A DNA stretch of 64,000 nucleotides, taken from assembly GCA_030549335.1 (NCBI GenBank), contig CM060183.1, forward strand, positions 35,400,768 through 35,464,767, read 5' to 3'. The position numbers and the translations under genes were made by a program. Below, piece after piece: positions 6,185-59,567 of this stretch (position 1 is the first letter of the stretch; each line of letters begins with the position of its first letter). This DNA comes from Pontederia crassipes. Its lineage: Eukaryota > Streptophyta > Magnoliopsida > Commelinales > Pontederiaceae. The notes below the pieces were generated by a model. It was not told where the DNA came from, ran no database searches, and worked only from the letters and a program-made list of their open reading frames with translations.

Positions 6185-6189
6185 ATCAC

Positions 6190-7621: not shown

Positions 7622-8846
7622 CACTACAGAAATCCGTCGCAATTTGCGACGGATTGGAATCCGTCGGGACGACCGACAGTTACAGCCGTCAGAAATAAAA
7701 ATAATAAATTATGCAATATAATATTTTATTATTTTATTTTTCGACGATTAGGAATATCGAAAGTTCCAACGGATATTTATCCGTCATAATTTTCGACGGT
7801 CCTGACCGTCAGTATATAATATAAGGAGTATTTTATTAATATAATTAGCGATAGTACAAATCGTCGTAATTTTTTACTGTCCTGACCGTCGGTAAGTGAA
7901 AAATAATATAATATAAGGAGTCTTTTGTTAATATAATTAGCGATAGTCCAGACCGTCAAAATTTTCGACGGTGTAGACCATCAGTAATCTAAAAAAATAT
8001 TCTATATATGTAAGTAATATTTTATTATTATAATTAAATAATTTCCGAAAGTCTCGACCATAAGTGAATTTAAAAATAATTAAATGTTATATTCAAATAT
8101 ATCATAATAATATATATTATTAATATTTCCTAAGTTTTCGACGATCATGACCGTCGGTAATTAAAAAATCACTCTCCCGCTGCTTCTTTTTTCATTATAT
8201 ATATAGTATATATATATCATCTTTCCCATCTTTCTCTCTCTCCACTCTCTACTTCTTTCCCTCTCTCCTCTCTCTCTCCCTCTCTTATTTTGCCAACGCG
8301 AGGACCTCTCGGACGATGACCCGCCGGCGACCCTCTCTCTCTCTCCAGCTCGGTCTCCGGCTCTAGCTCCCTCTCCGTTCGGATGCCAGCGGCCGGATCC
8401 GGCCGCCTCACAGTCCGATCTGGCCGCGGGTGGCCGAATCTGCCGCTGGCAGCACCAGGTGGTCAATCCGTCGGCCGGCTATACCAGGGCCGGCTAGCGG
8501 CTGGCAAATTTTTTTATATTATAAAAATCTATTGCGACGGTTGTCACCATTGAAACTTTTGACGGTTGTGACCGCCGAGGTTTTTCCATGATTGCTAACG
8601 TCGGAATGTTTCGATGGTTGCCGCGGTCGAAACGTTTCGATGGTTACGACCGTCGGAGTTTTACAGCAGTTATAACCGTCAAAACTTTCGATGAATTTTT
8701 TTGAGCCGTCGAAAATGAATTTGCGACGCCCTCTTTTTCAACTAAACGGATTCGTCGGTAAATCCGTCTAAAACAGAAGTTTCAGATGATTTTCTTGAAT
8801 TTTCAAACGGTTTGGACCGTCTGATAAAATCACTTTTCTTGTAGTG
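7622..8846. mobile_element. CACTA miniature element (1225 bp), complete
   Basis: Starts CACTACAGAAATCCGTCGC and ends TTTTCTTGTAGTG, with TCT on both sides (7619-7621 and 8847-8849), the 3-bp target duplication expected for CACTA. Both subterminal regions are packed with CCGTCGG/CCGACGG words. The core (8220-8470) is a CT-rich then GC-rich block with GGCCGGATCCGGCC palindromes, matching the family at 1-360. There is no transposase, so it is non-autonomous. Confidence 0.88.
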
Positions 8847-9262
8847 TCTCTTTTGGTGCCCTTTAGGATTCATGTTGGTAAAAAAATAGCAATTTTTTTT
8901 TGTAGTGATGTATGTAACTGGAGCATGATCAAGACAACTAGATGAGTATGTGCTATCAGGATGATGGATGAGTGAATGGCATGGAATGACACCTCCATGC
9001 ACGTAGAGATGTTTCATCACAATGGGTTAGTGATCGACAATTGATTCATCACACAATAGGCTGAGCGCAAGGCATCTGCTGAAATGATGTTGATGACGTT
9101 GACTACTTGTGAGTGCTTCCACCACTTCTGCCGAGCATGATTGTCCTCGAGGGGACCATGAGATGTTCAAAGTATTGTCCTTGGACGTTAGAATATTTTC
9201 TCGGTTGTTAAGGTGACGTTTAATGCGGTTAGATGGGTTTTTGTGGCTTGTACGTCGTCTTT
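8847..9262. other. Truncated copy of FT downstream sequence
   Basis: Matches 13101-13530 but stops at 9262, at the tandem junction. It contains a partial, diverged copy of the unrecognised minus-strand frame seen at 13289-13579. Confidence 0.6.
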
Positions 9263-9707
9263 AATGGTCGATATAGAAATGCTGCTGTAATCAGATTTCT
9301 TCTTCTTTTTATCTTTTGTGGTGGCAAAAGTTTCACATCTTAATATGTACCAGTACTATATATAGATATAGCTGCATGAGAGACTTGGGTCGATGCCTTT
9401 AGGAAAGATAGAGATATATCTGAAAGATGCATGTCTCACTTTATCAGGAACAAAAGAAGAATACTGGCAAAGCTTTTAGGACCAGGCGATCGAAGTAACC
9501 ACAACTTTAATTTCTGTTCATGCAACCGAGATTCTATTCGTAGCATATGGAAGAGGATCAGGTTATTGATTTCAACCAAGAAACATCACATGTCATTTCA
9601 TGTACAGGATCAGCAGACGTCAATCTGATACAAAATGGAATATTGAACAGGAATACAAAAATGGAGAAAGAAAAAGTTGTTTTGCTTTGCCAATATATGC
9701 AGCAAAT

Positions 9708-10508
9708 CAGTGTTATTAGAATCGGACCGGACCGGCCGGTCTGATCGGTTGTTAAGATTGGTCAGTTTGAAAGCTATAATCGGATTATCCTTTGGACCGA
9801 ATTACCCTTTGGACCGGATTAAAGCGGTTAAACCCGGTCAAAAACCGGATTAAATCGTGATTTGTATGAATCAGATCTTCTACAGAGACGAGTGAGTGAA
9901 AGAGAGAACACGTGAGAGAGGGATAGATATATATTGAAAATGTAAAAGATCTATGTGAATCATGGAGAAAGAGACGGTTGTGAGAGAGAGAAATATCATT
10001 GAAAATGCAAGAGATAAGAATCGGAGAGAGAGACGTGTGAGAGAGAATGAGAAACATTTGATACATAGAGTAGAGATGTTGAAAATGAGAAATAGGCAGT
10101 TGGAATTTGGAAAGAGAGAGTGTTGGGAAGGAGAGAGATAATATGGGGTAACGAGAAAGAGAGCGCAAGAGACGTTGGAAATGTGAGAATAATGAAGGCA
10201 ATAGAACTATTAAGATATGTATAAGAAATTTTGAACATTTTTTTATAAAAATATCTTATCTTATTTAAAAAGTTATTATGATTACAATATTTTATTTTAT
10301 AATTTAAACCTGCTTGGTTTCAAAATATTATGATTTAATTTTATTATAATATTTTTACCTTATTTATATGTTTGATATATAAATAATTTAATACATTGTA
10401 TTAAATTATAATATTTTATTATTAAGCGGTCCGACCAATCGATTCGACCGGTTCAATTTGAAACGAAGACTTTTCAATTTGTTGTCCGATCTGATCGTGA
10501 CAACACTG
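9708..10508. mobile_element. hAT-superfamily non-autonomous element (801 bp)
   Basis: Terminal inverted repeats begin CAGTGTTATT and end GACAACACTG, and a perfect 8-bp target duplication CAGCAAAT flanks it (9700-9707 and 10509-10516). Length, termini and 8-bp duplication fit the hAT superfamily. Inner termini repeat GGACCGG/CCGGTCTGATCGG words. There is no transposase. It is absent from the equivalent place in the older duplicate (around 3015), so it inserted after that duplication. Confidence 0.9.
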
Positions 10509-11877
10509 CAGCAAATTAAATTCACGCATGCATAGTTCATCATGTATGTATGTTTGTATTTATGTGTTATTAAATTAGTTTGGGCTATATGCATGTACAT
10601 GTGAATGAATCTATCCTGATGGTGAGAGCTCTCCACTGCAGGAGAGAGAAAGTGAAGGGTTCACGAATCTAGCTAACCCAATCGCTATGGAATATAAGAT
10701 GCCACGTTGGCCTTGGTAAAAGGTTAAAACAACGTGACCATTTAATTTTTTTTCCCATTTACGGATAATGTTTGGAAAATATCAGATATGTAATAATGTG
10801 CTCGACGTGTACGTCATAAAAGAACAAATGAATGCAATGGGTATAGGAACCTTTGCTTGTCTTCCATTTTATTTTGGTGCATAATTAAGCTTCTAATTAA
10901 AAAAAGTGAAAATATAGTGTTGTCCAAAAACTAGTTACGTAAAATTCGACTGGATCGGACTGATTGAACCAATGTCCGATCTTCAAAATAATTTGCGAAA
11001 ACTTGTCCTTAAGATTGATTTATTTTTATTCGATCAAATACAATTAAAATTCGAATTCAGTAGGTCAATCCGACGAGTTTGAATTATCTGGCCGAATCAA
11101 ATTGAAAATAAATGATTATGACAAAAAATAAAAATTTTAAGATGCATTACTTGCATATTTATAATTATAAAAAAAATCATCTTGTATGTAATAACTATTT
11201 AGTTAATACTTAGTTTCTTATATTATTTTACTTTTAAGCTATTTTATTTAAATTTATTATAATAGAACAGTAAGGATCAATTTTGACATACTAGAGCCTA
11301 TAAAAAGAGTGTCACCGCTAGAAACAAAAGCATACATCCAAGCCTTGAAAAAAAACTTCAAGTTATTAAAAGAAAACATTTTCTTCGAAGTTTCATTTTA
11401 AGTTTTCTCTTCTTTCTCTCTTCTCTTCTTATGAGCTTCGCATTGTAAAAGAGAGAAATATTTTATTTAAAGAAATACTGAGCTCCTGTGTAAAAGATAT
11501 TCTAAATCTTACATCTTGAGCGAGAGAAAAGATTAACTTCATTGGAGGAGAGATGAGTTTTACCTCTCGAAACGGAGAAAATGTGATGGTGTAAAGGGTT
11601 TTTTTCTTCCTTGCCTCATTTGGAACAAAAGAAGAATTCTAGTGGAATCTCCGATACTATCGAGGTCGACAAGTTGGAACGGAGATGTATGTCAAGGTGT
11701 GGCTGAACCTCGTCAACAACCACCACGCTCATTGTATTTGAATTTTTCTCTCTCTCATATTGTGTTTGATATGATCTGAGTTGTATTATTTTTAAAAAGA
11801 TTAATGAATCGATTTTAAGCTTCCGCGATGAATTTTGTGAAATTAATAGTTTTGTTTCAAACACCAACCCCCCCCCT
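10509..11877. other. Non-coding; copy 2 of 6290-7621
   Basis: Matches 6290-7621 at about 92-95 percent by eye, including a truncated hAT relative at 10932-11263 and a C-run just before the CACTA element. No gene is seen. Confidence 0.5.
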
Positions 11878-13100
11878 CACTACAAAATCTGTCGCAATTT
11901 GTGATGAATTTTGCGACGGATTGAAATCCGTCGGGACGACCGACAGTTACAGCCGTCAAAAATAAAAATAATAAATTATGTAATATATTATATTATTATT
12001 TTATTTTTCGACGATTAGGAACATCGAAAGTTTCAACGGATATCTATCCGTCGCAATTTTCGACGGTCCTGACCGTCGGTATATAATATAAGGAGTATTT
12101 TATTAATATAATTAGCGATACTCCAAACCGTCATAATTTTTTACGATCCTGACCGTCGGTAAGTAAAAAATAATATAACATAAGGAGTCTTTTGTTAATA
12201 TAATTAGTGACAGTCCAGACCGTCAAAATTTTCGACGGTGTAGACCATCAGTAAACTAAAAAATATATTCTATATATGTAAGTAGTATTTTATTATTATA
12301 ATTAAATAATTTCCGACAGTCTCGACCGTAAGTGACTTTAAAAATAATTAAATATTATATTCAAATATATCATAATAATATATATTATTAATATTTCTTA
12401 AGTTTTTGACGATCATGACCGTCGATAATTAAAAAATCACTCTCCCGCTGCTTCTTTTTTCATTATATATATATATATCATCTTTCCCATCTTTCTCTCT
12501 CTCCACTCTCTACTTCTTTCCCTCTCTCCTCTCTCTCTCTCCCTCTCTTATTTTGCCAGCGCGACAACCTCTCGGACGATGATCCACCGGCGACCCTCTC
12601 TCTCTCCAGCTCGGTCTCCGGCTCTAGCACCCTCTCCGTTCGGACGCCAGCTGCCGGATCCGGCCGCCTCACAATCCGGATCCGGGTGGCCGGATCTACC
12701 GCTGGCAGCACCAGGTGGTCGATCCGTCGGCCGACTGTACCAGGGCCTCTTGGCGGCTGCCAAATGTTTTTATATTATAAAAATCTATTGCGACGGTTGT
12801 CACCTTTGAAACTTTCGACGGTTGTGACCGCCGAGGTTTTTCCATGGTTGCTACCGTCGGAATGTTTCGATGGTTGTCGCCGCCGGAACGTTTCGGTGAT
12901 TACGACCGTCGGAGTTTTCCAGCCGTTATAACCGTCAAAACTTTCGAGAATTTTTTTGAGCCGTCGAAAATGGATTTGCGAGGCCTTTTTTTCGACTGAA
13001 CGGATTCGTCGGTAAATCCATTTGAAAGAGAAGTTTCAGATGATTTTCTTAAATTTTCAGACGGTTTGGACCGTATGATAAAATCACTTTTCTTGTAATG
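11878..13100. mobile_element. CACTA miniature element (1223 bp), older copy
   Basis: Diverged duplicate of 7622-8846: starts CACTACAAAATCTGTCGC and ends TTTTCTTGTAATG. The right flank is TCT, and the left flank has become CCT beside a C-run. The end base change (GTAATG for GTAGTG) is a useful marker, since it reappears in the chimeric element of unit 2. Confidence 0.85.
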
Positions 13101-14488
13101 TCTCTTTTGGTGGTCTTTAGGATTCTACATGTTCGTAAAAAAAGCGCAAATTTTTTTTTTTTGGTAGTGACGTATGTAGCTGGAGCATGATCAAGACAAC
13201 TAGATGAGTATGCGCTGTCAGGATGATGGATGAGTGAATGACATGGAATGACTCCTCCATGCACGTAGAGATGTTTCATCACAATGGGTTAGTGATCGAC
13301 AATTGATTCATCACACAATAGGCTGAGCACAAGGCATCTGCTGAATTGATGTTGATGACGTTGACTACTTGTGAGTGCTTCCACCACTTCTGCCAAGCAT
13401 GATTGTCCTCGAGGGGACCATGAGATGTTCAAAGTATTGTCCTTGGAGGTTAGAATGTTTTCTCGGTTGTTAAGGTGACGTTTAATACGGTTAGATGGGT
13501 TTTTTGTGGCTTGTACGTCGTCTTTAATGACGAAACTTTGCATGCATGTACTTTGAAATGCATGGTGTCCTAAGATCATTGACGCTGACGTGAGGTCGAT
13601 TTCTTACAGGGCAGGCGAGGATGATCTGAACCGTCTTTAAATATTGTCGGAGGATTGTGTCACTGGCATGTGTTTTGGGAGTGGGAACATGTTATATGTT
13701 GTGACCACGTAATTATTTCTCCTCATGTTAATCTAAATAATATTGGATGACTACCGCACCTTGTGTATGTGGTCATCCTCTCTTCTTGCAAGGAAAAAAA
13801 AAATACAATGTTGTTCTACCTCAAAAAAGTTGTAGATTGTGATGTCACCTCAATTTGACTCCGAGGGAATCTGGCATAAAGGTGATGAAGCTATCTCTAA
13901 TTATCTGTTGGGTATAAAGTTATTATCACGGTGTTGCAAAACATTATATATATATGGATTGTAACTTTTACGAATTAATGATGCAGAAGGAATCAGCCAT
14001 CTAATGGATAATAATACAAGGCTTATGCAAAAGTGGTATACTACAATTAATTGTTGGCAACCGTTGCCTGGTTTTATGTCGATTAAATCTTTCGTGATGA
14101 TGCACGGAGAACTAATTTATGATGAGATCAATGTGATGTGACTGCCCAAGCATATGATAATCATGTCATAATTTCTGGCGTGCCGAAGCTTACTGGTACC
14201 AACACAATCATCATACATTTCTCACCTCTTTGATCTCTGATAGCATGTGATCGGAAAAGCTTCCATTTTATTGATAACCAGCAATACATTTATATGTACC
14301 ATTATACTAAATACTTATCATATATGTGCGCGTATATTAATTATGTATTGCATGTTCTTGTTCTTTCTCTTATTGCCATAACCAGCTTTGCTTTGCATAA
14401 GCAAAGCGTCCACTTCTTAGGCTTTTAGCAGAGCTCGCTATCATGCATACTGCAGCAAGCAGGGAGATGAGCTTAATTAATTAATTAT
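13101..14488. other. FT1 downstream region
   Basis: DNA 3' of the FT-like gene, repeated almost unchanged at 25136-26520. It holds one unrecognised open frame (13289-13579, minus) and a short hairpin near 14381-14410 (TTTGCTTTGCATAAGCAAAG). No further gene is supported. Confidence 0.6.
13289..13579 (-). CDS. Unrecognised 96-codon open frame
   Basis: A 96-codon frame downstream of the FT-like gene on the same strand. No signal peptide, membrane segment or domain is recognised. The composition is Ser/Arg/His-rich. An unchanged-length copy is at 25321-25611 and a broken partial copy near 9020-9262. Its survival in the two units is explained by their recent origin and does not by itself argue for coding function. 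It could equally be an exon fragment of a lost gene or chance. Confidence 0.2.
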   Translation of the reverse strand: MILGHHAFQSTCMQSFVIKDDVQATKNPSNRIKRHLNNRENILTSKDNTLNISWSPRGQSCLAEVVEALTSSQRHQHQFSRCLVLSLLCDESIVDH

Positions 14489-15619
14489 TTAGCTTGGGTA
14501 CATTCTCCTCCCTCCACAGCCCGCTTCCCTGCGGCAGTTGAAGTAGACGGCAGCGACAGGAGCGCCGAGGTTGTAGAGCTCCGCGAACTCTCTGGTACTG
14601 AAGTTTTGGCGCCACTGCGGCGCGTACACCGTCTGCCGGCCAAGTTGCTCGAACAGCACGATCACGAAGCGGTGTATTCCCATGCTCGGCCGCGGACTCT
14701 CGTAGCAGATTACTTCGCTACCTTCAAACATGTATGCAGGTTGATATGAACTCAATTGATTGATATGAACTGTACGAGGAAGAAGAAGAAGAAGAACCTA
14801 CCAAAGTTTGGTGAAGTTGTTGCAGGAATGTCTGTAACCATCCTGATTCATTCATTAATGGAACAGTTGGTCAGCATATAGTGCAACCTCTTGTATCGTC
14901 ATAGCTACTTGGATCACAAATAATGCTACTATATACGGAAGTTATTACTATAATAAGATCGTTGATCGATATATCTCTGCACGTCTTTAATTAGTTTCAG
15001 TCTACACGTTCATGGCGAGAAGCTTAATTTCTAGGACACGGTGTTAATTTCCTTATTTCAGGCATCAGCAGTGTGATAGTTAGGTAGGATAAATCTAAAA
15101 GTGCATAGTGTAATATATTCACAATTAGTTACCAATGTAAATATTCTCGAAGACTTGGATTGCTTGGACTAGGTGCATCAGGGTCCACCATGATCTGCAG
15201 TACCACATATAAAAGGAAAATTGATTTTTCTTTTGTTTTGTTGAAGGAAATGAATAAACGTACACAAATATTATGTCGAAGTATCTCTAGCTAGCTATAC
15301 AGTTGATCAAAAGGTTCATCGTAAATATACGTATATATATACTGAAGAAGGTGTATCTGTAAAACTAAGGCGTTTATATGTATGCATGCATGCGTGCATG
15401 CATGTATAGATATAGTATATATACCAAAGTGTAGAAGGTCCTGAGATCGTCGCCTCCCACTTGAACCCTCGGTTGGCTGACGACCTCAGAAGGCTTAAAA
15501 TCGCGTCCATTGGTGACGTCCTTGGCTGCGTACCTCGCTCTCAGGCTCACACATCTGCTGAAGGGATCCAAGACATCCCCCACCACCCTCCCCACCACCA
15601 ATGGATCACTCTCTTCCAT
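14489..15619 (-). CDS. FT: FT-like florigen, PEBP family (copy 1)
   Basis: Phosphatidylethanolamine-binding-family protein of the FLOWERING LOCUS T type. In known plants FT moves from leaf phloem to the shoot apex and acts with 14-3-3 proteins and the bZIP factor FD to trigger flowering. Four exons by GT-AG reading: 15425-15619, 15133-15194, 14802-14842 and 14489-14721 (195, 62, 41 and 233 bp). The middle sizes are the classic FT ones. The product is 176 residues. Visible marks: [15 protein letters not shown] near the start, [10 protein letters not shown] (69-78), GIHR (114-117), Tyr83 and Gln138 (equivalents of Arabidopsis Tyr85 and Gln140, the FT rather than TFL1 state). The 14-3-3 contact residues Arg60, Pro92, Phe99 and Arg128 are kept. 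Odd: residue 135 is Gln where FT has Gly (YAPQW), and Glu124 replaces Arg/Gln. The frame is intact, with a good ATG and stop. An activator role is likely but not certain because of Gln135. Confidence 0.95.
15381..15404. promoter_or_regulatory. CATGCATG (RY-like) cluster in FT intron 1
   Basis: Overlapping CATGCATG/TGCATGCA words within 24 bp of the first intron. CATGCA is the RY motif read by plant B3-domain regulators, some of which are known to repress FT in Arabidopsis. The word is also simple alternating sequence, so function is only a possibility. The copy-2 equivalent is 27413-27436. Confidence 0.35.
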
Positions 15620-15755
15620 GGTTTCAGGAGATCAACAAAAAAGTGCACGTGCCTATTATATAGAAAAGCCTGCCCAAGAGCACTTCCAGTGCGATCTATA
15701 TATTATATCCTACTTCTGAGTTCTGCCTGTGGGTAGCTTCGCTGCCTTACATTAC

Positions 15756-15765
15756 CTATATATAG
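15756..15765 (-). promoter_or_regulatory. TATA box of FT copy 1
   Basis: CTATATATAG on the minus strand about 137 bp before the ATG, followed by a GC-moderate leader. It would give a 5' leader of roughly 100 nt. A GA microsatellite (15785-15806) lies just upstream. Identified by pattern and distance only. Confidence 0.6.
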
Positions 15766-15806
15766 AGTCGAGTCGACCAGAGGCAGAGAAAGAGAGAGAG
15801 AGAGAG

Positions 15807-16624
15807 GTGAGGGATCTGCATGACTTTCAACAATATTTTCTCCTGCAGTAGATCAGAGTTTCTTGAAGAATCCGCTTTATATTGCCTTTCAAGTTGCATT
15901 CACCATTGTGGTGTTCCACAGCTTAGGTGATAGGCCCCCGTTTATTCTTTCCCCTTTATTTTGTACTGCGCAATTATTTTCCGAATCGGATTCACTCCTA
16001 GATAAGCATATGGTGCATACATGCATGTTTGCTAATGAAGTAATATATCCAACTAACTAATTCGAAGATATAAAAAAAAATGTTAGTGCTAAACTTTATT
16101 TCAGATCATTAACTAACAATAATTAATTTCTCAAAAATATATAATTTATTTCCTTTAACGCCCCCTCACTTTTTTCGCTATCTGATCCTAAACTATAAAC
16201 TTACAAATTTTAGTCATCAAATTTATCTAAATTTGACACTTAGATCCTTTTGTTAAATTTTAACTAAATTTTATTAAATTTAATTGTGAAAAGTCCTTTT
16301 TACTCTTGGAATTAATGAACATGCTGCCCATTAAAATGGGTAGCATTATGCTCCCTACATCTAATAGTTTTCTTTCCCTGCCCAAAATCGAACTGGTCCT
16401 CATCAACGTCGCCAAACAATCTCCACTGTTTGAAGTCACCGCTGCCTTGAATGACCTTGCTGAAGCCTACGCTGTCGAACGACCTCATCGCACAATTACG
16501 AAGAGGTGCTTTCTTCCTTTATTCTTCTGAAATGTGAGGAACCTTTGCTTGTCTTCCATTTTATTTTGGTGCATAATTAAGCTTCTAATTAAAAAAAAGT
16601 GAAAATATAGTGCCGTCTAAAAAC
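15807..16624. other. FT1 proximal upstream region
   Basis: Intergenic DNA upstream of FT copy 1. 16145-16370 is a Mutator-like terminal arm, related in reverse complement to 1320-1735. 16306-16530 is an open frame of 74 codons that I do not recognise. 16541-16616 is shared with 6587-6660 and 10843-10925. The copy-2 equivalent is 27839-28656. Confidence 0.5.
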
Positions 16625-17142
16625 TAGTTACCTAAAATCCGGCAAGATCGGTCTGATTGGACCAATGTCGGATGGTCAAAATAATTTGCGGATAATCTCA
16701 AACTTATTCTTGAGGTTGATTTGTTTTTTATTCGATCAAATTCAATTAAAATTCGAATTCAATAGGTTGATCCGACAAGTTTGGATGATCCGGTCGAGTC
16801 AAATTGAAAAAAAATAATAATTAGGACAAAAAATTAAAAAAATTTAAGATACATTACTTGCATATTTATAATTACAAAAAATCATCTTGTATGTAATAAC
16901 TATTTAGTTAATACTTAGTTTCTTATATTATTTGACTTTTAAACTATTTTATTTAAATTTATTATAATTTATTGTATTTGTTATGCATCTTACCAAACAT
17001 TAAAAATATGAGAGAAAAATATTTAACATATTTTTACCATTTTTTTATTAAGTTATAATATATGGTTCAACCTAGTCTGATAAGTTCAACTTGACTCAAT
17101 CATCAATCTGAATCGATGACCGGATCGAATTTTACGACATTG
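16625..17142. mobile_element. hAT-like miniature element (518 bp) upstream of FT1
   Basis: Left end TAGTTACCTAAAATCCGG and right end TTTTACGACATTG form imperfect inverted repeats. Flanks CTAAAAAC (16617-16624) and TTAAAAAC (17143-17150) are an 8-bp target duplication with one mismatch, as expected for hAT. The inner part is AT-rich and has no open frame. It lies about 1.0-1.5 kb upstream of the FT ATG. Confidence 0.82.
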
Positions 17143-17669
17143 TTAAAAACGTAAAACCTATATTTTTTTCATTAAGCATTAACAAATTTTTAAAATAAAA
17201 GGTGCACGAACTCTATTATCAAAGATTTTAGAATCGTCCTTATACAAAAACAAGGATTAAAAAAAGTTTTTATTAGTCAAATTATTAACACAATTTGTAA
17301 CTCCATTTGCTTCCCCATAAATGTGTATGAAAGAAAAAGTTTGCAATCCCCTGTCCTTATTAGTTAGTGGACTAAGAAAACAAATTGGGCTATGACAAAT
17401 TGGGTGAGCTCAAAATCAATTTTGAGATGCAAATTAACATTCGTCATTACAAGTACGACCTAATTCTCAAATTAGGCTAATTAGGTCGTTCATATGAAGA
17501 CCAAAGAGTAAGCAAATCATTTCGCCAATTGGGAATTGAGTTTCCTCTGTAGAAATGGGATTCCCCAACCCAATTTGTACTACATGAAGTCTGATCATGA
17601 CAATTAATGAAGACAATTTAATTGTCCTTAGAAACAGAATATAAATGCTGGTGGCTTAACCATTACCTT
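17143..17669. other. FT1 distal upstream region
   Basis: AT-rich DNA without a gene. An inverted pair around 17460-17490 (GACCTAATTC and AATTAGGTC) is visible. The equivalent in unit 2 is 29175-29687. Confidence 0.5.
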
Positions 17670-17923
17670 TTAAAAAAAAAAGATTCCACCAACAGATGTA
17701 ATAACCAACAGTGCACACAAAAATTGTAGGAGGTCCTGAGAAGGCTCATCCCTCCAAAATACATCAACATAAGAGACTAATCGACTATTATTAGCAATAT
17801 AATTAACAGCTTGATTTGCTTTCCTATAAATATGTCTAATTTCAAGGTATTCAAAATTGTCTATAGTGTTCCAAATGTCAAACATAACATTTCTGATCTT
17901 CCAAGGAAAAGATGCCTTTTTGT
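17670..17923 (-). pseudogene. LINE RNase H-like fragment, cut by duplication
   Basis: Minus-strand frame with HIYRKANQAVNYIANNSR, the signature of the RNase H-like tail found in plant L1-type LINE proteins. It is cut at 17923 by the junction with unit 2. Nothing else of the LINE is present here. Confidence 0.6.
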
Positions 17924-17927
17924 CTTC

Positions 17928-19381
17928 AAATTTAAATAAGTTCGGAGAATAAAATTTGTAAATTTATAGTTTAGGGTTAGATGTGAAAAAAGGTTATAGT
18001 TTAGGAGATGTTAAAGGAAAACTGAAATAACCAAATAATTAATCTGAACATTGTATTGTATATGTTAAACAGGTTGCTTGGGTTCTAATCCAATTCGAAG
18101 TTAAGGGTGGTGTCACCCAGCTCGATATAATTGATTTGATCACCGATACCAAGTAATGATCGAGCCTCCAATTTTCCATCAGTTACAAATTAAAACCCTC
18201 ACAAGTTTTGTGGGTAAGAAATAATTAAACTATATACCTTTTATAGACCAACAAGCTTTTCAAAGAAAGGTTGGGCAATAACAAATCTGCTCATGAATCT
18301 TTATTCTGAAAATGAAATGGCAGACCAAAAGGAAATCTGCTCATGAACCGTGGCGCCCCTCTCGGTTCGGTGGAACCAAGATGTTGAAATCAGGTCACGC
18401 GTGCGCCTGGTTCCAACATCTCAGTTCCACTCGCGTTTAAAAAATTAGGTGGAATCGAGGGCGCGGCCATAGGGGTTTATGTAGGCATCAATGTGGTGCA
18501 CATGTGAAAGGAGAGAACTTCTTTGAGCTTAGTTTTAAGTATATGTATAATAAGAAGATAAAATTAACTAATCGAGTTAAGTTATAATAATTCTCCAATT
18601 AAAGAGGTTTATGGATGAGAAAAAAAGACGAAAGGTCCTATTTTGTTACATACAAATATGTCAGAAATATTTAAGCGCTTAGTACAGACTAAAATAATTA
18701 AATCATAATAAATATAATGATGAATGAAGTAAAAAAGTTAAAAATACTTTTTTAAAAAAAAAGAAAAAAATAGAAAGAAAGAAAGAGAACTCGGAGTTGA
18801 GAATTTGGTACATATAAAGATAAAAAGAAAACAAATCATGCATGGGAATATATAATATGATCGATGTAGAAACAATGCTGAAGTAATCAGAATTCTTTTT
18901 TTTATCTTTTGTGGCGGCAAAAGGTGCATATCTTAATATATATGTACTATATATAGATATTGCTGCATGAGAGACTTGGATCGATGCCTTTTGGAGAGAT
19001 AGAGATACATCATGTCTCATTTTATCAGGAACAAAAGAATACTGCCAAAGCTTTTAATTAGGACCAGGCGATCGAACTAACCACAACTTTAATGTCTGTT
19101 CGTGCAATCGAGATTCTATTCGTAACATATGGAAGAGGATCAGGTTCTTGACTTCAACCAAGAACCATCATATGTGATTTCATGTACAGCATCAGCAGAT
19201 GTTCATCTGGATACCATCCTTGGTTCTCTGGAATAATGAACAGGAATACAAAATGGAGAAAGAAAAAGTTGGCGTTTTGCTTTGCCAATATATGCAGCAA
19301 ATTGAATTCGTGCATGCATTAGTTCATTATGTACCTATGCACAGGGCCGGCTCAACGATAAATAAATTAAGTACTTATCAC
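17928..19381. other. Non-coding part of unit 2
   Basis: Counterpart of 1616-3097, with about 1 percent differences and a deletion of about 25 bp near 18462 relative to unit 1. No gene is seen. Confidence 0.5.
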
Positions 19382-21866
19382 CACTACAAGAGAAACACAT
19401 CTAACGACGCAAATTTATGTTCTTATGGACACATTTTTTACATCTTTAAAAAGGTCATCTGCGCTTTCAAAAGCAACCTTATTCTTTGTGTCAAAAATAA
19501 TATTAGGGACGTAATATTTTATGTTGCTAACGTGCGTCTCAAATATTAAGACACTTACATTTCTGTCTCTAATCAACGTTGTTAAATTATAGACGCTATT
19601 TTCGGCATCGTCCACTTGCGACTCAATTTTAATGATGCAATTATGGGTGTCGTCAGTGGACGTCAGCAAGTTAAAGACAATTTAGTTTATGTTGTTAGCT
19701 TGCGCTGTTAACAAACTCACGTACACTTTTCAAAGTGTCCTTATTCTTGATGTCAAAAATTTTGAGACGCTAATATTTGCATCATTATCATGCGACACAA
19801 AAATGTAAAGACATTATTGTTTACGTTGTTAATTTGTGTTGTTAAATTGGATACGTTATTTGATTGTATCACTAGCGTCTCTAATGGAAGGACATTGTTA
19901 TTTGCATCATCAAGTGTTGCCAATTAAGAACGCTATAACAAGTGTCAAAAATAAATGTTGTAAATTTAAGTACACTTTTATTTCATTTTTTTAAAAACAT
20001 TTTTAAAAATGTCACATTCAAAAATTGGCACAAGCTAACAAATGTCCTTCATTGTCCTTTAAAGACGCATAATTGGCGTCTTAAACTATATTATTATTTT
20101 ATAAATATTAATTCATTATATCATTTAACATGCATATGGCACATATATATAATGATTTTGCAAACCAGACAAATAGAATATAAGCAAAAAGTCAATCTAG
20201 ATATCAAATTAAAAATTCTGAAGAATTTGTTACACGTATCACACACATCTAAAAAAAAGAAAAATATGATAGATCTAAAAATCTCTAATAGAAGACACTT
20301 GAAGCTTTATCATTCCCTTCAATCTTTAAGTTCTTTGGCCATGTTGCTGTTAAAAACAAAATGATAAATTTATAGGTATCAAATTGTACATTTAGTGTTA
20401 GTAATATACTTTTACATTATACAAATTGAAAAGTGCTTACTTGTGAATGTGATAATTCATCTATATTTACTCAGTTAAAATGTTATACTAGTGATGTTAT
20501 GGTGTCAATTTGAGCTTGCATAGTTGATATTTGTTGTCGATGATATTTGGTATCCTGTTGTGTGAGGAGCAAGTTGATGTGCACGTATTTTTTTACCTAT
20601 TGCAAATATATTCTAACAAAGAAAAAATTCATTCTCATAAGAATCATATTTACTTAAGTATTTGAGATATATGAAATTATTATCTTTCTTTTTTCAGAAA
20701 ACTAATAATGGATTGGGTCCATTAACTTCTTTCGGAGCTTGCTTGCTGCATTTAGTTATGACCTCCCATCAAGCATATGTTTTTCTTTGAGAATTTAGAA
20801 TCCATTAATCAACTTTAATATTAGGAAGAAGGACAAATTTTTCTTATAGCAAATGAATTAGCATATATACGAAACACGTAAAAAGTTAATACACATATTT
20901 ACAAATGAACTGTAACAACATTTTTAACATGTCATATTTAAAACAATCTAATATTTGTATCATGTCATATTAAAATAATCTAACATTTTTAACATGGCAT
21001 ATGAAAAAATATTAATTAAAAAAATAAGACATGTCAGATGAGAAACTATTAACAAAAATGAGAAATTTAAAAACTATGCGACTAAATGCAACGTCTCATC
21101 CCATAGTTCGCCAAAGGAGCGCAGAGAATCTCTGCGTCCGAGTAGGGGCACACGTCGTGCCCCAAAGGGGCGAGCGCTGCCCCTGCCTGAGCAGGGGCAC
21201 CCTCGTACGTCGTTGCTGGGGCGAGCACACCCCTCTTCTCACCTGAGCAGGGGCACCGCCGTGCGCCCCTGCTGGGGCGCACATTGCGTCTTGCGCCCCT
21301 AATCAGGCGAGTAGAGGGGCGCGCGTCACACCCCTTTGCTGGTCTGAGCAGGGGCGCGAGGTGTGCGTGACCCTCTGCTCACCCAGCAGGGGCGCACGAC
21401 GGTGCCCCTGCTCGAGGAGCAGAGGGGTGCGACACGTGCCCCTCTGCTGGCCTGGGCAGCGGCGCGCGCCCCTCTGCTCGCCCGAGCAGGGGCACCATCT
21501 TGCGCCCCTGCTGGGGTGAGCAGAGGGGTGCGCCACGCGCCCCTATAGGGGTGAGCAGAGGGGGCGCACGCCCCTCTCTGATCGTCAAAGAGCAGCGCGC
21601 TGATAGTTGACGAGCAGGCCGCGCACGATGACATGTGCCCTTGAGAGAAAAAAATATTAAAGGAAGAAGAAAGTACTCAAGAAGTTGAAGAAAGATAAGA
21701 ACTTACCCAAGAAGGAAGAATCACGTCAAGAAGAAATCTGTGCAAAAAAGATTTTAATGAAACTAATTTTATCAAGTTTGTTGTTAAGTGTTAGATAAGA
21801 TAAGATAACAATATATGAATCTTTTACTTAATAACATTACTTCTAAATATATAATTATAAATTTCG

Positions 21867-21897
<31 letters not shown>

Positions 21898-22479
21898 CTT
21901 TTACACATGAACGAATGAACAAATTATTTATGATTGTAAATGGATACTTGATCATCCTTGATTATATCAAAGGGCTTCAAATCATTAATAAGACATTATT
22001 TACCAAGTCTAAATTAATCGGATTTATATTTTAGTTTATTTAGAATTAAAATTAAAATGTATCAAGCTTAATAAATGTTTCATATGATATCTGAAAATGA
22101 TTTTAATTATATATCCAAAAAATAAAATATTGCTTTAAAATTTAAATGTATGATTTATAAAAAATAATGTGAAAGCAAAAACAAACGTCCCTATGATCAA
22201 ATATTATTGAGACGCAATAGAATTTGCGTAGCTAGCTAATTCAAATTATGAGATTCAAAACTAAAATATATTTATATTCTAAATTAAAACAGGGACACAA
22301 AATTATTGTGTCTTAAAATTTTAAAAAGTGGAACACTAGTTATATTTGCGTCCTTATTATTTTATAATAATAATAACATTATAAAAAACGTCCTTATAAG
22401 TGAACACTTTGTAGAGAATAAGGACACTTCAATTTGTGTCTTTAATTAAGCGCCCTTAAATAATTATGTTGTTGTAGTC
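19382..22479. mobile_element. Non-autonomous CACTA-like element, unit 2 copy
   Basis: Duplicate of 3098-6184 with the same termini (CACTACAAGAG and GTTGTAGTC) and the same flanking ATCAC (22480-22484 on the right). It carries a longer TA microsatellite near 21868-21896 and scattered point differences. Its GC-rich array is at about 21120-21640. It reached this place by segmental duplication, not by a second insertion, because its flanks match too. Confidence 0.75.
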
Positions 22480-22484
22480 ATCAC

Positions 22485-23933
22485 TCGTACTTTTAGATCT
22501 AACTAATTCAAATAGTATTTTGCCTATTCTTCTCTTTTTTTGTGTGTGTGATCAATAATATTATTTTTTCCGCTTTAATCCTTCGAATATGTATGTATGT
22601 ATGTGTTATTAATTAGTTTGGGCTATAGGTACACGTGAATGAATCTATCCTGATGGTGAGAGCGTTCCACTGCAAGAGAGAGAAAGTGAAGGGTTCACGA
22701 ATCTAGTTAACCCAATCCCTATGGAATATAAGATACCACGTTGGCCTTGGTAAAAGGTTAAAACCTCGTGACCATTTAAATTTTTTTCCCATTTTCGGAT
22801 AATGTTTGGAAAATATCAGATACGTAATAATGTGCTCGACGTGTACGTCATGAAAGAACAAATGAATGCAATGGGTATAGGAACCTTTGCTTGTCTTCCA
22901 TTTTATTTTGGTGCATAATTAAGCTTCTAATTAAAAAAAGTAAAAATATAGTGTTGTCTAAAAACTAGTTACCTAAAATCCGACTGGATCGGACTGATTG
23001 AACCAATGTCTGGTCTTCAAAATAATTTGCGAATAATCTCAAACTTGTCCTTAAGATTGATTTATTTTTATTCGATCAAATACAATTAAAATTCGAATTT
23101 AGTAGGTCAATCCGACGAGTTTGAATTATCTGGTCGAATCAAATTGAAAATAAATAATTAGGACAAAAAATTAAAAATTTTAAGATGCATTACTTGCATA
23201 TTTATAATTATAAAAAAATCATCTTATATGTAATAACTATTTAGTTAATACTTAGTTTCTTATATTATTTTACTTTTAAGCTATTTTATTTAAATTTATT
23301 ATAATAGAACAGTAAGGATCAATTTTGACATACTAGAGCCTATAAAAAGAGTGTCACATATAGAAACAAAAGCATATATTCAAGTCTTGAAAAAAACTTC
23401 AAGTTATCAAAAGAAAACATTTTCCTTAAAGTTTTCATTTTAAGTTTTCTCTTCTTTATCTCTTCTCCTCTTGTGAGCTTAGCATTGTAAAAGAAATAAA
23501 CATTTTATTTAGAAAAATACTGAGCTCCTGTGTAAAAGATGTTCTAAATTTTACATCTTAAGAGAGAGAAAAGATTAACTTCATTGGAGGAGAGGTGAGT
23601 CTTACCTCTCGAAGCGGAGAAAAGGTAGTGGTGTAAAGGATTTTTTTCTTCCTTGCCTCAATTGGAACAAAAGAAGAATTCTACTGAAATCTCCGACACT
23701 ATCGAAGTCGATAAGTCGGAGCGGAGACGTATGTCAAAGTGTGGCTGAACCTCGTCAACAACCACCGCGTTCATTGTATTTGAATTCTTTCTTTCTCTCA
23801 TATTGTGTTTGATATGATCTGAGTTGTATTATTTTTAAAAGGATCAACGAATCGATTTTAAACTTCCACGACGAATTTCGTGAAATTAATAGTTTTGTTT
23901 CAAACACAAACCCCCCCCCCCCACACTACAGAA
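22485..23933. other. Non-coding part of unit 2, before chimeric CACTA
   Basis: Counterpart of 6190-7621, including the truncated hAT relative at 22966-23305. It ends in a C-run (about 23911-23932) longer than in the other copies. Confidence 0.5.
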
Positions 23934-25135
23934 ATCCGTCGCAATTTGCGACGGATTGGAATCCGTCGAGACGACCGACAGTTACAGCCGTCAGAAATAA
24001 AAATAATAAATTATGCAATATAATATTTTATTTTTCGACGATTAGGAATATCGAAAGTTCCAACGGATATCTATCCGTCATAATTTTCGACGGTCCTGAC
24101 CGTCAGTATATAATATAAGGAGTATTTTATTAATATAATTAGCGATAGTACAAATCGTCGTAATTTTTTACTGTCCAGACCGTCGGTAAGTGAAAAATAA
24201 TATAATATAAGGAGTCTTTTGTTAATATAATTAGCGATAGTCCAGACCGTCAAAATTTTCGACGGTGTAGACCATCAGTAATCTAAAAAAATATTCTATA
24301 TATGTAAGTAATATTTTATTATTATAATTAAATAATTTCCGAAAGTCTCGACCATAAGTGAATTTAAAAATAATTAAATGTTATATTCAAATATATCATA
24401 ATAATATATATTATTAATATTTTCTAAGTTTTCGACGATCATGACCGTCGGTAATTAAAAAATCACTCTCCCGCTGCTTCTTTTTTCATTATATATATAG
24501 TATATATATATCATCTTTCCCATCTTTCTCTCTCTCCACTCTCTACTTCTTTCCCTCTCTCCTCTCTCTCTCCCTCTCTTATTTTGCCAACGCGACGACC
24601 TCTCGGACGACGACCCGCCGGCGACCCTCTCTCTCTCCAGCTCGGTCTCCGGCTCTAGCTCCCTCTCCGTTCGGATGCCAGCGGCCGGATCCGGCCGCCT
24701 CCCAGTCCGATCTGGCCGCGGGTGGCCGAATCTGCCGCTGGCAGCACCAGGTGGTCGATCCGTCGGCCGGCTGTACCAGGGCCGGCTAGCGGCTGGCAAA
24801 TTTTTTTATATTATAAAAATCTATTGCGACGGTTGTCACCATTGAAATTGACGGTTGTGACCGCCGAGGTTTTTCCATGATTGCTAACGTCGGAATGTTT
24901 CGATGGTTGCCGCGGTCGGAACATTTCGATGGTTACGACCGTCAGAGTTTTGCAGCAGTTATAATCGTCAAAACTTTCGATGAATTTTTTTGAGCCGTCG
25001 AAAATGAATTTGCGATGCCCTCTTTTTCAACTAAACGGATTCGTCGGTAAATCCGTCTAAAACAGAAGTTTCAGATGATTTTCTTGAATTTTCAAACGGT
25101 TTGGACCGTCTGATAAAATCATTTTTCTTGTAATG
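23934..25135. mobile_element. Chimeric CACTA miniature element in unit 2
   Basis: Left and central parts, up to about 25110, follow the 7622-8846 copy (for example GAATTTTCAAACGGTTTGG). The last bases and the right flank follow the 11878-13100 copy (TTGTAATG, then GGATTCTACATGTTCG). The switch lies between about 25110 and 25131. It is preceded by a long C-run. See the recombination finding. Confidence 0.85.
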
Positions 25136-26520
25136 TCTCTTTTGGTGGCCTTTAGGATTCTACATGTTCGTAAAAAAATCGCAATTTTTTTTTTGGTAGT
25201 GACGTATGTAGCTGGAGCATGATCAAGACAACTAGATGAGTATGCGCTGTCAGGATGATGGATGAGTGAATGACATGGAATGACTCCTCCATGCACGTAG
25301 AGATGTTTCATCACAATGGGTTAGTGATCGACAATTGATTCATCACACAATAGGCTGAGCACAAGGCATCTGCTGAAATGATGTTGATGACGTTGACTAC
25401 TTGTGAGTGCTTCCACCACTTCTGCCAAGCATGATTGTCCTCGAGGGGACCATGAGATGTTCAAAGTATTGTCCTTGGAGGTTAGAATGTTTTCTCGGTT
25501 GTTAAGGTGACGTTTAATACGGTTAGATGGGTTTTTTGTGGCTTGTACGTCGTCTTTAATGACGAAACTTTGCATGCATGTACTTTGAAATGCATGGTGT
25601 CCTAAGATCATTGACGCTGACGTGAGGTCGATTTCTTACAGGGCAGGCGAGGATGATCTGAACCATCTTTAAATATTGTCGGAGGATTGTGTCACTGGCA
25701 TGTGTTTTGGGAGTGGGAACATGTTATATGTTGTGACCACGTAATTATTTCTCCTCATGTTAATCTAAATAATATTGGATGACTACCGCACCTTGTGTAT
25801 GTGGTCATCCTCTCTTCTTGCAAGGAAAAAAAATACAATGTTGTTCTACCTCAAAAAAGTTGTAGATTGTGATGTCACCTCAATTTGACTCCGAGGGAAT
25901 CTGGCATAAAGGTGATGAAGCTATCTCTAATTATCTGTTGTGTATAAAGTTATTATCACGGTGTTGCAAAACATTATATATATATATGGATTGTAACTTT
26001 TACGAATTAATGATGCAGAAGGAATCAGCCATCTAATGGATAATAATACAAGGCTTATGCAAAAGTGGTATACTACAATTAATTGTTGGCAACCGTTGCC
26101 TGGTTTTATGTCGATTAAATCTTTCGTGATGATGCACGGAGAACTAATTTATGATGAGATCAATGTGATGTGACTGCCCAAGCATATGATAATCATGTCA
26201 TAATTTCTGGCGTGCCGAAGCTTACTGGTACCAACACAATCATCATACATTTCTCACCTCTTTGATCTCTGATAGCATGTGATCGGAAAAGCTTCCATTT
26301 TATTGATAACCAGCAATACATTTATATGTACCATTATACTAAATACTTATCATATATGTGCGCGTATATTAATTATGTATTGCATGTTCTTGTTCTTTCT
26401 CTTATTGCCATAACCAGCTTTGCTTTGCATAAGCAAAGCGTCCACTTCTTAGGCTTTTAGCAGAGCTCGCTATCATGCATACTGCAGCAAGCAGGGAGAT
26501 GAGCTTAATTAATTAATTAT
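25136..26520. other. FT2 downstream region
   Basis: Matches 13101-14488 almost exactly; see that entry. No additional feature. Confidence 0.55.
25321..25611 (-). CDS. Unrecognised 96-codon open frame, unit 2 copy
   Basis: Duplicate of 13289-13579, differing by one visible residue (His for Gln in the QHQ stretch). The same caution applies: nothing here identifies a family. Confidence 0.2.
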   Translation of the reverse strand: MILGHHAFQSTCMQSFVIKDDVQATKNPSNRIKRHLNNRENILTSKDNTLNISWSPRGQSCLAEVVEALTSSQRHQHHFSRCLVLSLLCDESIVDH

Positions 26521-27651
26521 TTAGCTTGGGTACATTCTCCTCCCTCCACAGCCCGCTTCCCTGCGGCAGTTGAAGTAGACGGCAGCGACAGGAGCGCCGA
26601 GGTTGTAGAGCTCCGCGAACTCTCTGGTACTGAAGTTTTGGCGCCACTGCGGCGCGTACACCGTCTGCCGGCCAAGTTGCTCGAACAGCACGATCACGAA
26701 GCGGTGTATTCCCATGCTCGGCCGCGGACTCTCGTAGCAGATTACTTCGCTACCTTCAAACATGTATGCAGGTTGATATGAACTCAATTGATTGATATGA
26801 ACTGTACGAGGAAGAAGAAGAAGAAGAACCTACCAAAGTTTGGTGAAGTTGTTGCAGGAATGTCTGTAACCATCCTGATTCATTCATTAATGGAACAGTT
26901 GGTCAGCATATAGTGCAACCTCTTGTATCGTCATAGCTACTTGGATCACAAATAATGCTACTATATACGGAAGTTATTACTATAATAAGATCGTTGATCG
27001 ATATATCTCTGCACGTCTTTAATTAGTTTCAGTCTACACGTTCATGGCGAGAAGCTTAATTTCTAGGACACGGTGTTAATTTCCTTATTTCAGGCATCAG
27101 CAGTGTGATAGTTAGGTAGGATAAATCTAAAAGTGCATAGTGTAATATATTCACAATTAGTTACCAATGTAAATATTCTCGAAGACTTGGATTGCTTGGA
27201 CTAGGTGCATCAGGGTCCACCATGATCTGCAGTACCACATATAAAAGGAAAATTGATTTTTCTTTTGTTTTGTTGAAGGAAATGAATAAACGTACACAAA
27301 TATTATGTCGAAGTATCTCTAGCTAGCTATACAGTTGATCAAAAGGTTCATCGTAAATATACGTATATATATACTGAAGAAGGTGTATCTGTAAAACTAA
27401 GGCGTTTATATGTATGCATGCATGCGTGCATGCATGTATAGATATAGTATATATACCAAAGTGTAGAAGGTCCTGAGATCGTCGCCTCCCACTTGAACCC
27501 TCGGTTGGCTGACGACCTCAGAAGGCTTAAAATCGCGTCCATTGGTGACGTCCTTGGCTGCGTACCTCGCTCTCAGGCTCACACATCTGCTGAAGGGATC
27601 CAAGACATCCCCCACCACCCTCCCCACCACCAATGGATCACTCTCTTCCAT
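26521..27651 (-). CDS. FT: FT-like florigen, PEBP family (copy 2)
   Basis: Second complete copy, offset by 12032 from the first. Exons are 27457-27651, 27165-27226, 26834-26874 and 26521-26753. The predicted 176-residue protein is identical to copy 1, including the Gln at the YAPGW glycine. Introns and about 2.3 kb of upstream DNA also match almost base for base. It lies about 3.5 kb from the 3' end of the CTP synthase gene, on the same strand. Its distal upstream DNA (beyond 29956) is unique, whereas copy 1 faces the transposon-rich start of unit 2. It is either a recent duplicate or one homogenised by gene conversion; an assembly duplicate must also be considered. Confidence 0.95.
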
Positions 27652-27787
27652 GGTTTCAGGAGATCAACAAAAAAGTGCACGTGCCTATTATATAGAAAAG
27701 CCTGCCCAAGAGCACTTCCAGTGCGATCTATATATTATATCCTACTTCTGAGTTCTGCCTGTGGGTAGCTTCGCTGCCTTACATTAC

Positions 27788-27797
27788 CTATATATAG
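27788..27797 (-). promoter_or_regulatory. TATA box of FT copy 2
   Basis: Same CTATATATAG and spacing as in copy 1. The core promoter is unchanged between copies. Confidence 0.6.
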
Positions 27798-27838
27798 AGT
27801 CGAGTCGACCAGAGGCAGAGAAAGAGAGAGAGAGAGAG

Positions 27839-28656
27839 GTGAGGGATCTGCATGACTTTCAACAATATTTTCTCCTGCAGTAGATCAGAGTTTCTTGAAG
27901 AATCCGCTTTATATTGCCTTTCAAGTTGCATTCACCATTGTGGTGTTCCACAGCTTAGGTGATAGGCCCCCGTTTATTCTTTCCCCTTTATTTTGTACTG
28001 CGCAATTATTTTCCGAATCGGATTCACTCCTAGATAAGCATATGGTGCATACATGCATGTTTGCTAATGAAGTAATATATCCAACTAACTAATTCGAAGA
28101 TATAAAAAAAAATGTTAGTGCTAAACTTTATTTCAGATCATTAACTAACAATAATTAATTTCTCAAAAATATATAATTTATTTCCTTTAACGCCCCCTCA
28201 CTTTTTTCGCTATCTGATCCTAAACTATAAACTTACAAATTTTAGTCATCAAATTTATCTAAATTTGACACTTAGATCCTTTTGTTAAATTTTAACTAAA
28301 TTTTATTAAATTTAATTGTGAAAAGTCCTTTTTACTCTTGGAATTAATGAACATGCTGCCCATTAAAATGGGTAGCATTATGCTCCCTACATCTAATAGT
28401 TTTCTTTCCCTGCCCAAAATCGAACTGGTCCTCATCAACGTCGCCAAACAATCTCCACTGTTTGAAGTCACCGCTGCCTTGAATGACCTTGCTGAAGCCT
28501 ACGCTGTCGAACGACCTCATCGCACAATTACGAAGAGGTGCTTTCTTCCTTTATTCTTCTGAAATGTGAGGAACCTTTGCTTGTCTTCCATTTTATTTTG
28601 GTGCATAATTAAGCTTCTAATTAAAAAAAAGTGAAAATATAGTGCCGTCTAAAAAC
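27839..28656. other. FT2 proximal upstream region
   Basis: Matches 15807-16624 base for base as far as I can see, with the same Mutator-like arm and the same unrecognised 74-codon frame (28338-28562). Confidence 0.5.
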
Positions 28657-29174
28657 TAGTTACCTAAAATCCGGCAAGATCGGTCTGATTGGACCAATGT
28701 CGGATGGTCAAAATAATTTGCGGATAATCTCAAACTTATTCTTGAGGTTGATTTGTTTTTTATTCGATCAAATTCAATTAAAATTCGAATTCAATAGGTT
28801 GATCCGACAAGTTTGGATGATCCGGTCGAGTCAAATTGAAAAAAAATAATAATTAGGACAAAAAATTAAAAAAATTTAAGATACATTACTTGCATATTTA
28901 TAATTACAAAAAATCATCTTGTATGTAATAACTATTTAGTTAATACTTAGTTTCTTATATTATTTGACTTTTAAACTATTTTATTTAAATTTATTATAAT
29001 TTATTGTATTTGTTATGCATCTTACCAAACATTAAAAATATGAGAGAAAAATATTTAACATATTTTTACCATTTTTTTATTAAGTTATAATATATGGTTC
29101 AACCTAGTCTGATAAGTTCAACTTGACTCAATCATCAATCTGAATCGATGACCGGATCGAATTTTACGACATTG
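28657..29174. mobile_element. hAT-like miniature element upstream of FT2
   Basis: Duplicate of 16625-17142 with the same ends and the same 8-bp flanks. It arrived with the segmental duplication. Confidence 0.82.
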
Positions 29175-29687
29175 TTAAAAACGTAAAACCTATATTTTTT
29201 TCATTAAGCATTAACAAATTTTTAAAATAAAAGGTGCACGAACTCTATTATCAAAGATTTTAGAATCGTCCTTATACAAAAACAAGGATTAAAAAAAGTT
29301 TTTATTAGTCAAATTATTAACACAATTTGTAACTCCATTTGCTTCCCCATAAATGTGTATGAAAGAAAAAGTTTGCAATCCCCTGTCCTTATTAGTTAGT
29401 GGACTAAGAAAACAAATTGGGCTATGACAAATTGGGTGAGCTCAAAATCAATTTTGAGATGCAAATTAACATTCGTCATTACAAGTACGACCTAATTCTC
29501 AAATTAGGCTAATTAGGTCGTTCATATGAAGACCAAAGAGTAAGCAAATCATTTCGCCAATTGGGAATTGAGTTTCCTCTGTAGAAATGGGATTCCCCAA
29601 CCCAATTTGTACTACATGAAGTCTGATCATGACAATTAATGAAGACAATTTAATTGTCCTTAGAAACAGAATATAAATGCTGGTGGC

Positions 29688-30075
29688 TTAACCATTACCT
29701 TTTATAAAAAAAAAGATTCCACCAACAGATGTAATAATCAACAGTGCACACAAAAATTGTAGGAGGTCCTGAGAAGGCTCATCCCTCCAAAATACATCAA
29801 CATAAGAGACTAATCGACTATTATTAGCAATATAATTAACAGCTTGATTTGCTTTCCTATAAATATGTCTAATTTCAAGGTATTCAAAATTGTCTATAGT
29901 GTTCCAAATGTCAAACATAACATTTCTGATCTTCCAAGGAAAAGATGCCTTTTTGTTAACAATGCCGACAAGGTTAGACGAGTCAGTTTGCACTATGATC
30001 TTCTGGTAGTCAAGTTCTGAGCATTTGATGATGCCCTATCTCAGTGCTCAAGCTTTCGCATCCAGGACGGTGTGG
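29688..30075 (-). pseudogene. LINE RNase H-like fragment with in-frame stops
   Basis: Longer version of the 17670-17923 fragment. The minus-strand frame runs through IIVQTDSSNLVGIVNKKA and the HIYRKANQAVNY motif to a stop at 29688. Upstream it contains two in-frame stops near 30033-30050. This matches the C-terminal RNase H-like domain of non-LTR retrotransposon proteins. It is dead and non-mobile in this state. Confidence 0.65.
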
Positions 30076-56809: not shown

Positions 56810-56814
56810 CCGTA

Positions 56815-59562: not shown

Positions 59563-59567
59563 CCGTA

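Follow-up and report, generated by a model that had tools for sequence, protein, structure and literature searches.

A stretch of 64,000 bp of the water hyacinth (Pontederia crassipes) genome, C1:35400768-35464767 (the window, taken at its full length), carries two FT-like genes, here called copies c and d. When Arabidopsis FT was used as a tblastn query, its four exons were matched twice in the window, both times on the minus strand. Copy c was modelled from exons at 15619-15425, 15194-15133, 14842-14802 and 14721-14489, and copy d from exons at 27651-27457, 27226-27165, 26874-26834 and 26753-26521, with GT-AG introns throughout. Exon sizes are the same in both (195/62/41/233 bp); a four-exon structure whose second and third exons are short (62 and 41 bp) is typical of FT-like genes, and we take the exon structure of c and d to be that of FT itself. 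The genes are arranged head to tail at an offset of 12,032 bp, and their coding sequences, each specifying 176 amino acids, show 0 synonymous and 0 non-synonymous differences. The exon models, the offset and the identical coding sequences bear out the original prediction of two four-exon FT-like genes on one strand, about 12 kb apart and encoding the same protein. Its description of the introns and proximal promoters as nearly identical was, if anything, too cautious: c and d show no difference in the introns, in 0.5 kb of 3' flank or in 2.05 kb of promoter, and the longest exact match spanning the gene extends over 3,728 bp (the core; Table 1). Within the FT-side segment (13530-17923; 3 mismatches in 4,392 aligned positions), the copies differ by single-nucleotide polymorphisms at 13633, 13911 and 17705 and by three indels, all of them outside the gene. 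Upstream of the ATG, c and d align for 2,305 bp at 99.9% identity.

Self-BLAST placed each gene in a larger repeat unit, and the two units abut at a joint that has no homology and contains two filler bases. Identity between the units is 96.9-98.4% over 7 kb, which excludes chance. The predicted interval, 13101 to 29956, was right at 29956, where the second unit ends; 13101 is no boundary, because the first unit begins at 1616. A 301-bp query spanning the joint had a full-length match at one place in the genome, and its halves matched many places (40 of 920 candidates scored). No N was found in the window or in the C1 and C2 stretches that were read. Matches to the right half of the joint query were numerous and often lay in inverted pairs approximately 400-550 bp apart. 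The breakpoint was considered as the exact end of a transposon, and this was ruled out because the same element in C2 continues left of the breakpoint; the break therefore sits inside a terminal inverted repeat. This repeat, at 1350-1720 and 17926-18020, is part of a small element that recurs at many points in the genome, and it contains the duplication joint. At copy d an RVT_3 reading frame crosses the unit end, whereas at copy c the joint interrupts it; judged by this frame, d is the holder of the ancestral flank, and c was cut there by the joint.

The second unit is approximately 4.3 kb shorter than the first, with a single repeat, R3, in place of R1, spacer and R2. R3 differs from R1 at 50 of 2,961 aligned positions. 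At 245 informative sites, its left part is R1-like with scattered exceptions and its part right of approximately 25190 is R2-like with one exception, a mosaic that is the expected product of exchange between R1 and R2. A retroelement origin, with R1 and R2 as its long terminal repeats and R3 as a solo one, was considered and rejected: the ends do not have the form of long terminal repeats, and R3 and R1 have the same left flank. A genome search with R1 returned at least four full-length copies (R1, R2 and R3 included) and at least one partial copy, all in the C1 array described below; the remaining matches, one of them in C2, cover parts only. These counts are lower bounds, with 40 of 12,483 candidates scored.

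Table 1. Positions of the duplicated FT-like genes and associated features in the window
Feature	Position	Strand	Description
FT-like gene copy c	14489..15619	-	four exons, 176 amino acids; tblastn, splicing
FT-like gene copy d	26521..27651	-	four exons, protein identical to that of c; tblastn, splicing
Identical core, unit 1	13945..17672		3,728 bp: 2.05 kb promoter, FT-like gene, 0.5 kb 3' flank; probable conversion tract
Identical core, unit 2	25977..29704		exact match to unit 1 core
First, longer repeat unit	1616..17923		16.3 kb; contains R1, spacer, R2 and copy c; self-BLAST, junction reading, segment alignments
Second, shorter repeat unit	17926..29956		12.0 kb; contains R3 and copy d; self-BLAST, junction reading, segment alignments
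Filler bases CT at head-to-tail joint	17924..17925		junction reading
Repeat R1	6293..9266		3 kb; self-BLAST, alignment, genome search
Spacer separating R1 from R2	9267..10548		absent from unit 2
Repeat R2	10549..13529		3 kb; 93.6% identical to R1
Repeat R3	22588..25561		R1-like left and R2-like right of about 25190; 245 informative sites
RVT_3 (reverse-transcriptase-like) reading frame	29691..30035	-	spans unit end at d; cut at 17923 in c

The two genes have close relatives nearby and on a second contig. A search of the genome with the FT protein gave 102 matches at E <=0.001 (111 of 111 candidates scored), among which exon-4 matches of the array type lay on C1 at 35372950, 35384907, 35415259 and 35427291 and on C2 at 2541583, 2550469 and 2593025. 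The C1 array comprises copies a, b, c and d, with a and b left of the window, and the C2 array comprises x, y and z. All seven copies have 176-amino acid open frames and canonical intron ends; for copy y, the donor ahead of a 7-bp insertion was chosen. Some otherwise conserved sites are altered in b (G to R and E to G among them) and in x (among them G to V and L to P). Collinearity between C1 and C2 extends to either side of the arrays (BLAST blocks of at least 500 bp at 82-99.5% identity), and the two longest flanking blocks are 94.6% (3.8 kb) and 95.6% (5.9 kb) identical. Gene regions (exons, introns and near flanks) of the array copies are 4.3-7.8% apart, compared with 0 differences in 1,751 positions between c and d. 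Seven intact copies in two homoeologous arrays, with the older copies at this distance, make the locus truly an array, and by divergence the c/d pair is the youngest part of this larger FT-like cluster. In the array gene tree, a and b were joined at 100/100 and c equalled d; the other branches were weak, so one-to-one C1/C2 partners cannot be named. The gene-adjoining upstream alignments of d with a, b, z, y and x (pieces >60 bp, within 9 kb of the gene) end at -429 to -687, beyond which d shares repeat fragments with these copies.

C1 and C2 are one of several contig pairs. The assembly holds 16 contigs of 37.8-85.1 Mb, with the next largest at 18.9 Mb (among 23 of 43 contigs), and PEBP matches group 12 of the 16 into six pairs; C5/C6 and C15/C16 were paired by order only. 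All eight FT-like locus pairs compared are 91.2-95.7% identical over their alignable parts, and one further PEBP pair is 91.1% identical. Two haplotypes are a less likely account of C1 and C2 than two subgenomes, given this level of identity and the unequal lengths of partners (37.8/44.9 and 69.8/85.1 Mb). One group of FT-like genes, which we take to resemble onion FT, points together with GC-rich last exons to a monocot, and from these data the plant is probably an allotetraploid monocot. The published water hyacinth genome has 16 pseudochromosomes (45.8-104.5 Mb each, 1.22 Gb in all) forming 8 pairs, with subgenomes of 640 and 578 Mb and a tetraploidisation dated to 8-10 million years ago (PMC10938897). 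A PEBP locus at C13:55.08 Mb has its apparent partner on a small contig (C30:0.70 Mb), so C14 may be without a terminal piece in the assembly. A long CCCTAAA array was present at 1 of 20 contig ends sampled.

The protein encoded by c and d was assigned to the FT family by several measures. In a PDB search, it matched rice Hd3a (2e-82), Arabidopsis FT (1.3e-79) and TFL1 (3.1e-58), and Pfam assigned the PEBP domain (PBP, PF01161) at 3.3e-11, above the cut-off. Tyr85 and Gln140, which are His and Asp in TFL1, are present in all seven array copies, as are FT-like residues at E109 and N152. The 14-3-3 contact positions of Hd3a are R62, P94, F101 and R130, and all four are kept in 7/7 copies. Positions 115 and 150 differ from Arabidopsis FT (M and L in the array). 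In segment B, Y134 and W138 are present in all seven copies, and position 137 is Q in all seven (Gly137 in Arabidopsis FT). Position 137 is G at 16 of 16 FT-like loci outside the array, a comparison made at exon 4 over the stronger matches of the genome search, namely two loci each on C3 and C4, one each on C13 and C14 and ten on C7/C8/C11/C12. The seven array genes formed their own clade on a longer branch of the protein tree, and the tree gave them no settled place among the monocot FT clades published in PMC9847362 and PMC8408984.

Ratios of nonsynonymous to synonymous substitution (dN/dS, NG86) between full-length array pairs ranged from 0.17 to 0.79, below 1 in 15/15 pairs, each value resting on few substitutions. 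Exons 1 and 4 alone gave 0.20-1.06 for six array pairs, with one pair at 1.06. Of the other FT homoeologue pairs, five of seven had values of 0.05-0.07 and two had values of 0.28-0.29, the latter from exon 4 only (213 nt). This suggests that the array is under weaker constraint than most other FT pairs compared. Because its proteins change faster than those of five of the seven pairs, they are perhaps not the main florigen, and the array may represent a divergent FT-like subfamily that is not clearly the principal florigen of the plant. The name "florigen genes" in the original prediction therefore held for FT likeness (the PBP domain and the key residues) and went too far for the role: Q137, the separate clade and the raised dN/dS leave "florigen" a label of similarity, with the role putative.

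The reading we lean towards is a real and recent tandem duplication within an older FT-like array, with additive dosage of one PEBP signal as its predicted outcome. The sequence itself shows two copies of a unit, the first 16.3 kb long, in head-to-tail order across a non-homologous joint with 2 filler bases. Recombination between R1 and R2 in the second unit would then have removed approximately 4.3 kb and left the mosaic R3, and after the duplication, gene conversion would have homogenised the 3.7-kb core, in which the FT gene lies together with 2 kb of its promoter. Both copies would make one FT-like protein off the same proximal promoter, and the effect would be additive. Copy c is without the ancestral sequence past -2.3 kb, the region from which any expression difference would arise. 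Identical genes behind identical proximal promoters predict added dosage, so extra product from c and d is plausible. The earlier proposal of doubled dosage thus keeps its premise, two intact copies with 2.05 kb of identical upstream sequence, and is too simple as arithmetic, with four copies on C1 and three on C2. The companion idea of split expression finds no room in the proximal promoter; c and d differ past approximately -2.3 kb and on the 3' side, and a split could arise only there. The premise that FT copy number can alter flowering has a precedent in barley HvFT1 (VRN-H3), in which extra copies are tied to earlier expression and flowering (PMC3664738).

Several points weigh against this reading. 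Divergence is uneven along the unit, with 1616-2615 and parts of the R repeats higher; array dN/dS exceeds that of most other FT pairs compared; copy number is known from the assembled sequence of one genome; and c-d divergence outside the core (0.3-0.6%) is near the heterozygosity of water hyacinth, estimated at 0.76% by k-mers (PMC10938897).

The second of these points bears on function. Nearly as likely as a dosage effect is neutral turnover, in which the duplication is real but unequal exchange makes the copy number of a lively, weakly constrained FT-like family drift, and flowering is little affected. It concerns function and is compatible with the structural part of the preferred explanation. 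The spread of dN/dS in the 15 array pairs, set against the low values of five of the seven other homoeologue pairs, fits such drift, as do the altered conserved sites of b and x; the 3-kb R repeats, with at least five long copies, all in the C1 array, offer a substrate for unequal exchange, and candidates for the main florigen exist elsewhere, in the FT genes on C3/C4 and C13/C14. Against drift, all seven frames and their intron ends have stayed intact despite 4-8% divergence, and dN/dS is below 1 in every full-length array pair, with the single value of 1.06 confined to exons 1 and 4.

The other points bear on how c and d came to be so alike. The left part of the unit (A) contains 28 mismatches in 4,641 positions, 22 of them transitions. 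The core has 0 in 3,727, and differences resume on both sides of it. This contrast was significant by Fisher's test against all of A (p 7e-8) and against its quietest part (2616-6292, 12 in 3,677; p 2e-4). Since the core is identical while the rest of the unit differs by at least 0.3%, it was probably homogenised by gene conversion, which is the simplest reading of the sequence. The first kilobase of the units (1616-2615 versus 17926-18930) contains 16 single-nucleotide polymorphisms and 5 indels, above the level of the next 4 kb. This excess and that in parts of R perhaps came from exchange with other array repeats, and the divergence profile along the units is no simple clock. At 6.5e-9 and 1.3e-8 substitutions per site per year, respectively, a divergence of 0.33% would date the duplication to about 0.25 or 0.13 million years ago, with an upper age for the core of about 0.06 or 0.03 million years (95% bound).

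The same unevenness means that exchange between diverged haplotypes could substitute for conversion. Unit 2 would then have come from unequal exchange between chromosomes, a diverged haplotype supplying its left part and a near-identical one its FT part. We regard this as possible but doubtful: divergence does fall from near the R1/R2 switch at about 25190, as it predicts, but differences recur on both sides of the core, including 17672-17705 towards the unit end, which is the pattern of a bounded tract, an argument that rests on three single-nucleotide polymorphisms and three indels.

A real duplication is also preferred over an assembly artefact, in which two haplotypes of one locus, a full unit and a unit with the R1/R2 deletion, were placed end to end. 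The level of divergence outside the core would suit this, within the range of heterozygosity given above, but the type of joint does not: it contains no N and no overlap common to both ends, and it links two different places with 2 filler bases, for which an assembler needs a real read. The other tandem copies, 4-8% apart, and the second array on C2 indicate that the locus does duplicate, and the artefact is unlikely.

With Y85, Y134, W138 and Q140 retained, together with the 14-3-3 contact positions, the array product is most likely of the FT (activator) type. An FT-type flowering antagonist like beet BvFT1 is very improbable. In its favour, Q137 falls at one of the three positions of the external loop that are altered in the beet repressor (PMC10156061). 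Against it, Y134 and W138 are kept in all seven copies, the Arabidopsis FT changes G137A/W/E/R were not repressive whereas changes at Tyr134 or Trp138 were (PMC10156061), and AcFT1 of kiwifruit, with G137R, stays an activator (PMC5441913).

Other features were observed in the window. Pieces of a CTP synthase gene (CTP_synth_N) lie right of the array at 34512-36476 on the minus strand and form a usable synteny anchor. Retrotransposon remains at 55935-61154 on the plus strand include gag, zinc knuckle (below cut-off), reverse transcriptase and RNase H pieces. At 38615-39050, an inverted repeat of approximately 436 bp (reverse self-match 80.7%) is perhaps a small hairpin-like element.

If the copies are expressed, the locus would offer a concrete place for FT dosage tests outside the grasses; the joint could be typed by one polymerase chain reaction, and the homoeologous array provides an internal comparison. 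The turnover of an FT array, through duplication, repeat-mediated loss and homogenisation, would be legible within 30 kb. If turnover is neutral, the pair is an ordinary young tandem duplicate. A bolder proposal, which we hold with little confidence, is that a divergent FT-like subfamily with Q137 in a clonal, allotetraploid aquatic monocot has been amplified repeatedly through locus-specific 3-kb repeats, with subgenome-specific copy number, and that conversion keeps gene and promoter of the youngest pair the same, so that copy number would serve as an adjustable dose for the change from clonal growth to flowering and back. The array was not described in the water hyacinth papers listed on FLOWERING LOCUS T, PEBP or florigen, a listing with weak coverage of subscription journals.

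Tandem FT genes have been published for several plants, and the c/d pair is another case of a known kind, FT copy-number duplication. As in barley HvFT1, there is more than one intact, near-identical FT copy per genome, and the duplicated piece includes the beginning of the promoter as well as kilobases of 3' flank; however, the HvFT1 duplicated region begins <600 bp upstream of the ATG, whereas c and d include 2.3 kb, and HvFT1 copies are tied to earlier flowering, whereas c and d are known from sequence alone (PMC3664738). Within the same genome, an older tandem FT pair is located at C4:23.39 Mb and, on the homoeologue, at C3:24.48 Mb. Like c and d, each homoeologue there has two FT-like genes, approximately 7 kb apart. 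Unlike c and d, these genes are old, with 81.4% protein identity over exons 1, 2 and 4, and unlike the array, they have PGW in segment B and a dN/dS of 0.05-0.06 between homoeologues. Beet BvFT1 shares with the array a change at external-loop position 137, but the array is without the Tyr134 and Trp138 changes of the repressor (PMC10156061). Rice Hd3a and Arabidopsis FT (structures 3axy and 6igg) have their fold family and functional residues in common with copy c, which is 74.5% and 68.2% identical to them, respectively, over exons 1, 2 and 4; the array is set apart from both by Q for G at 137 and by its own clade on a longer branch.

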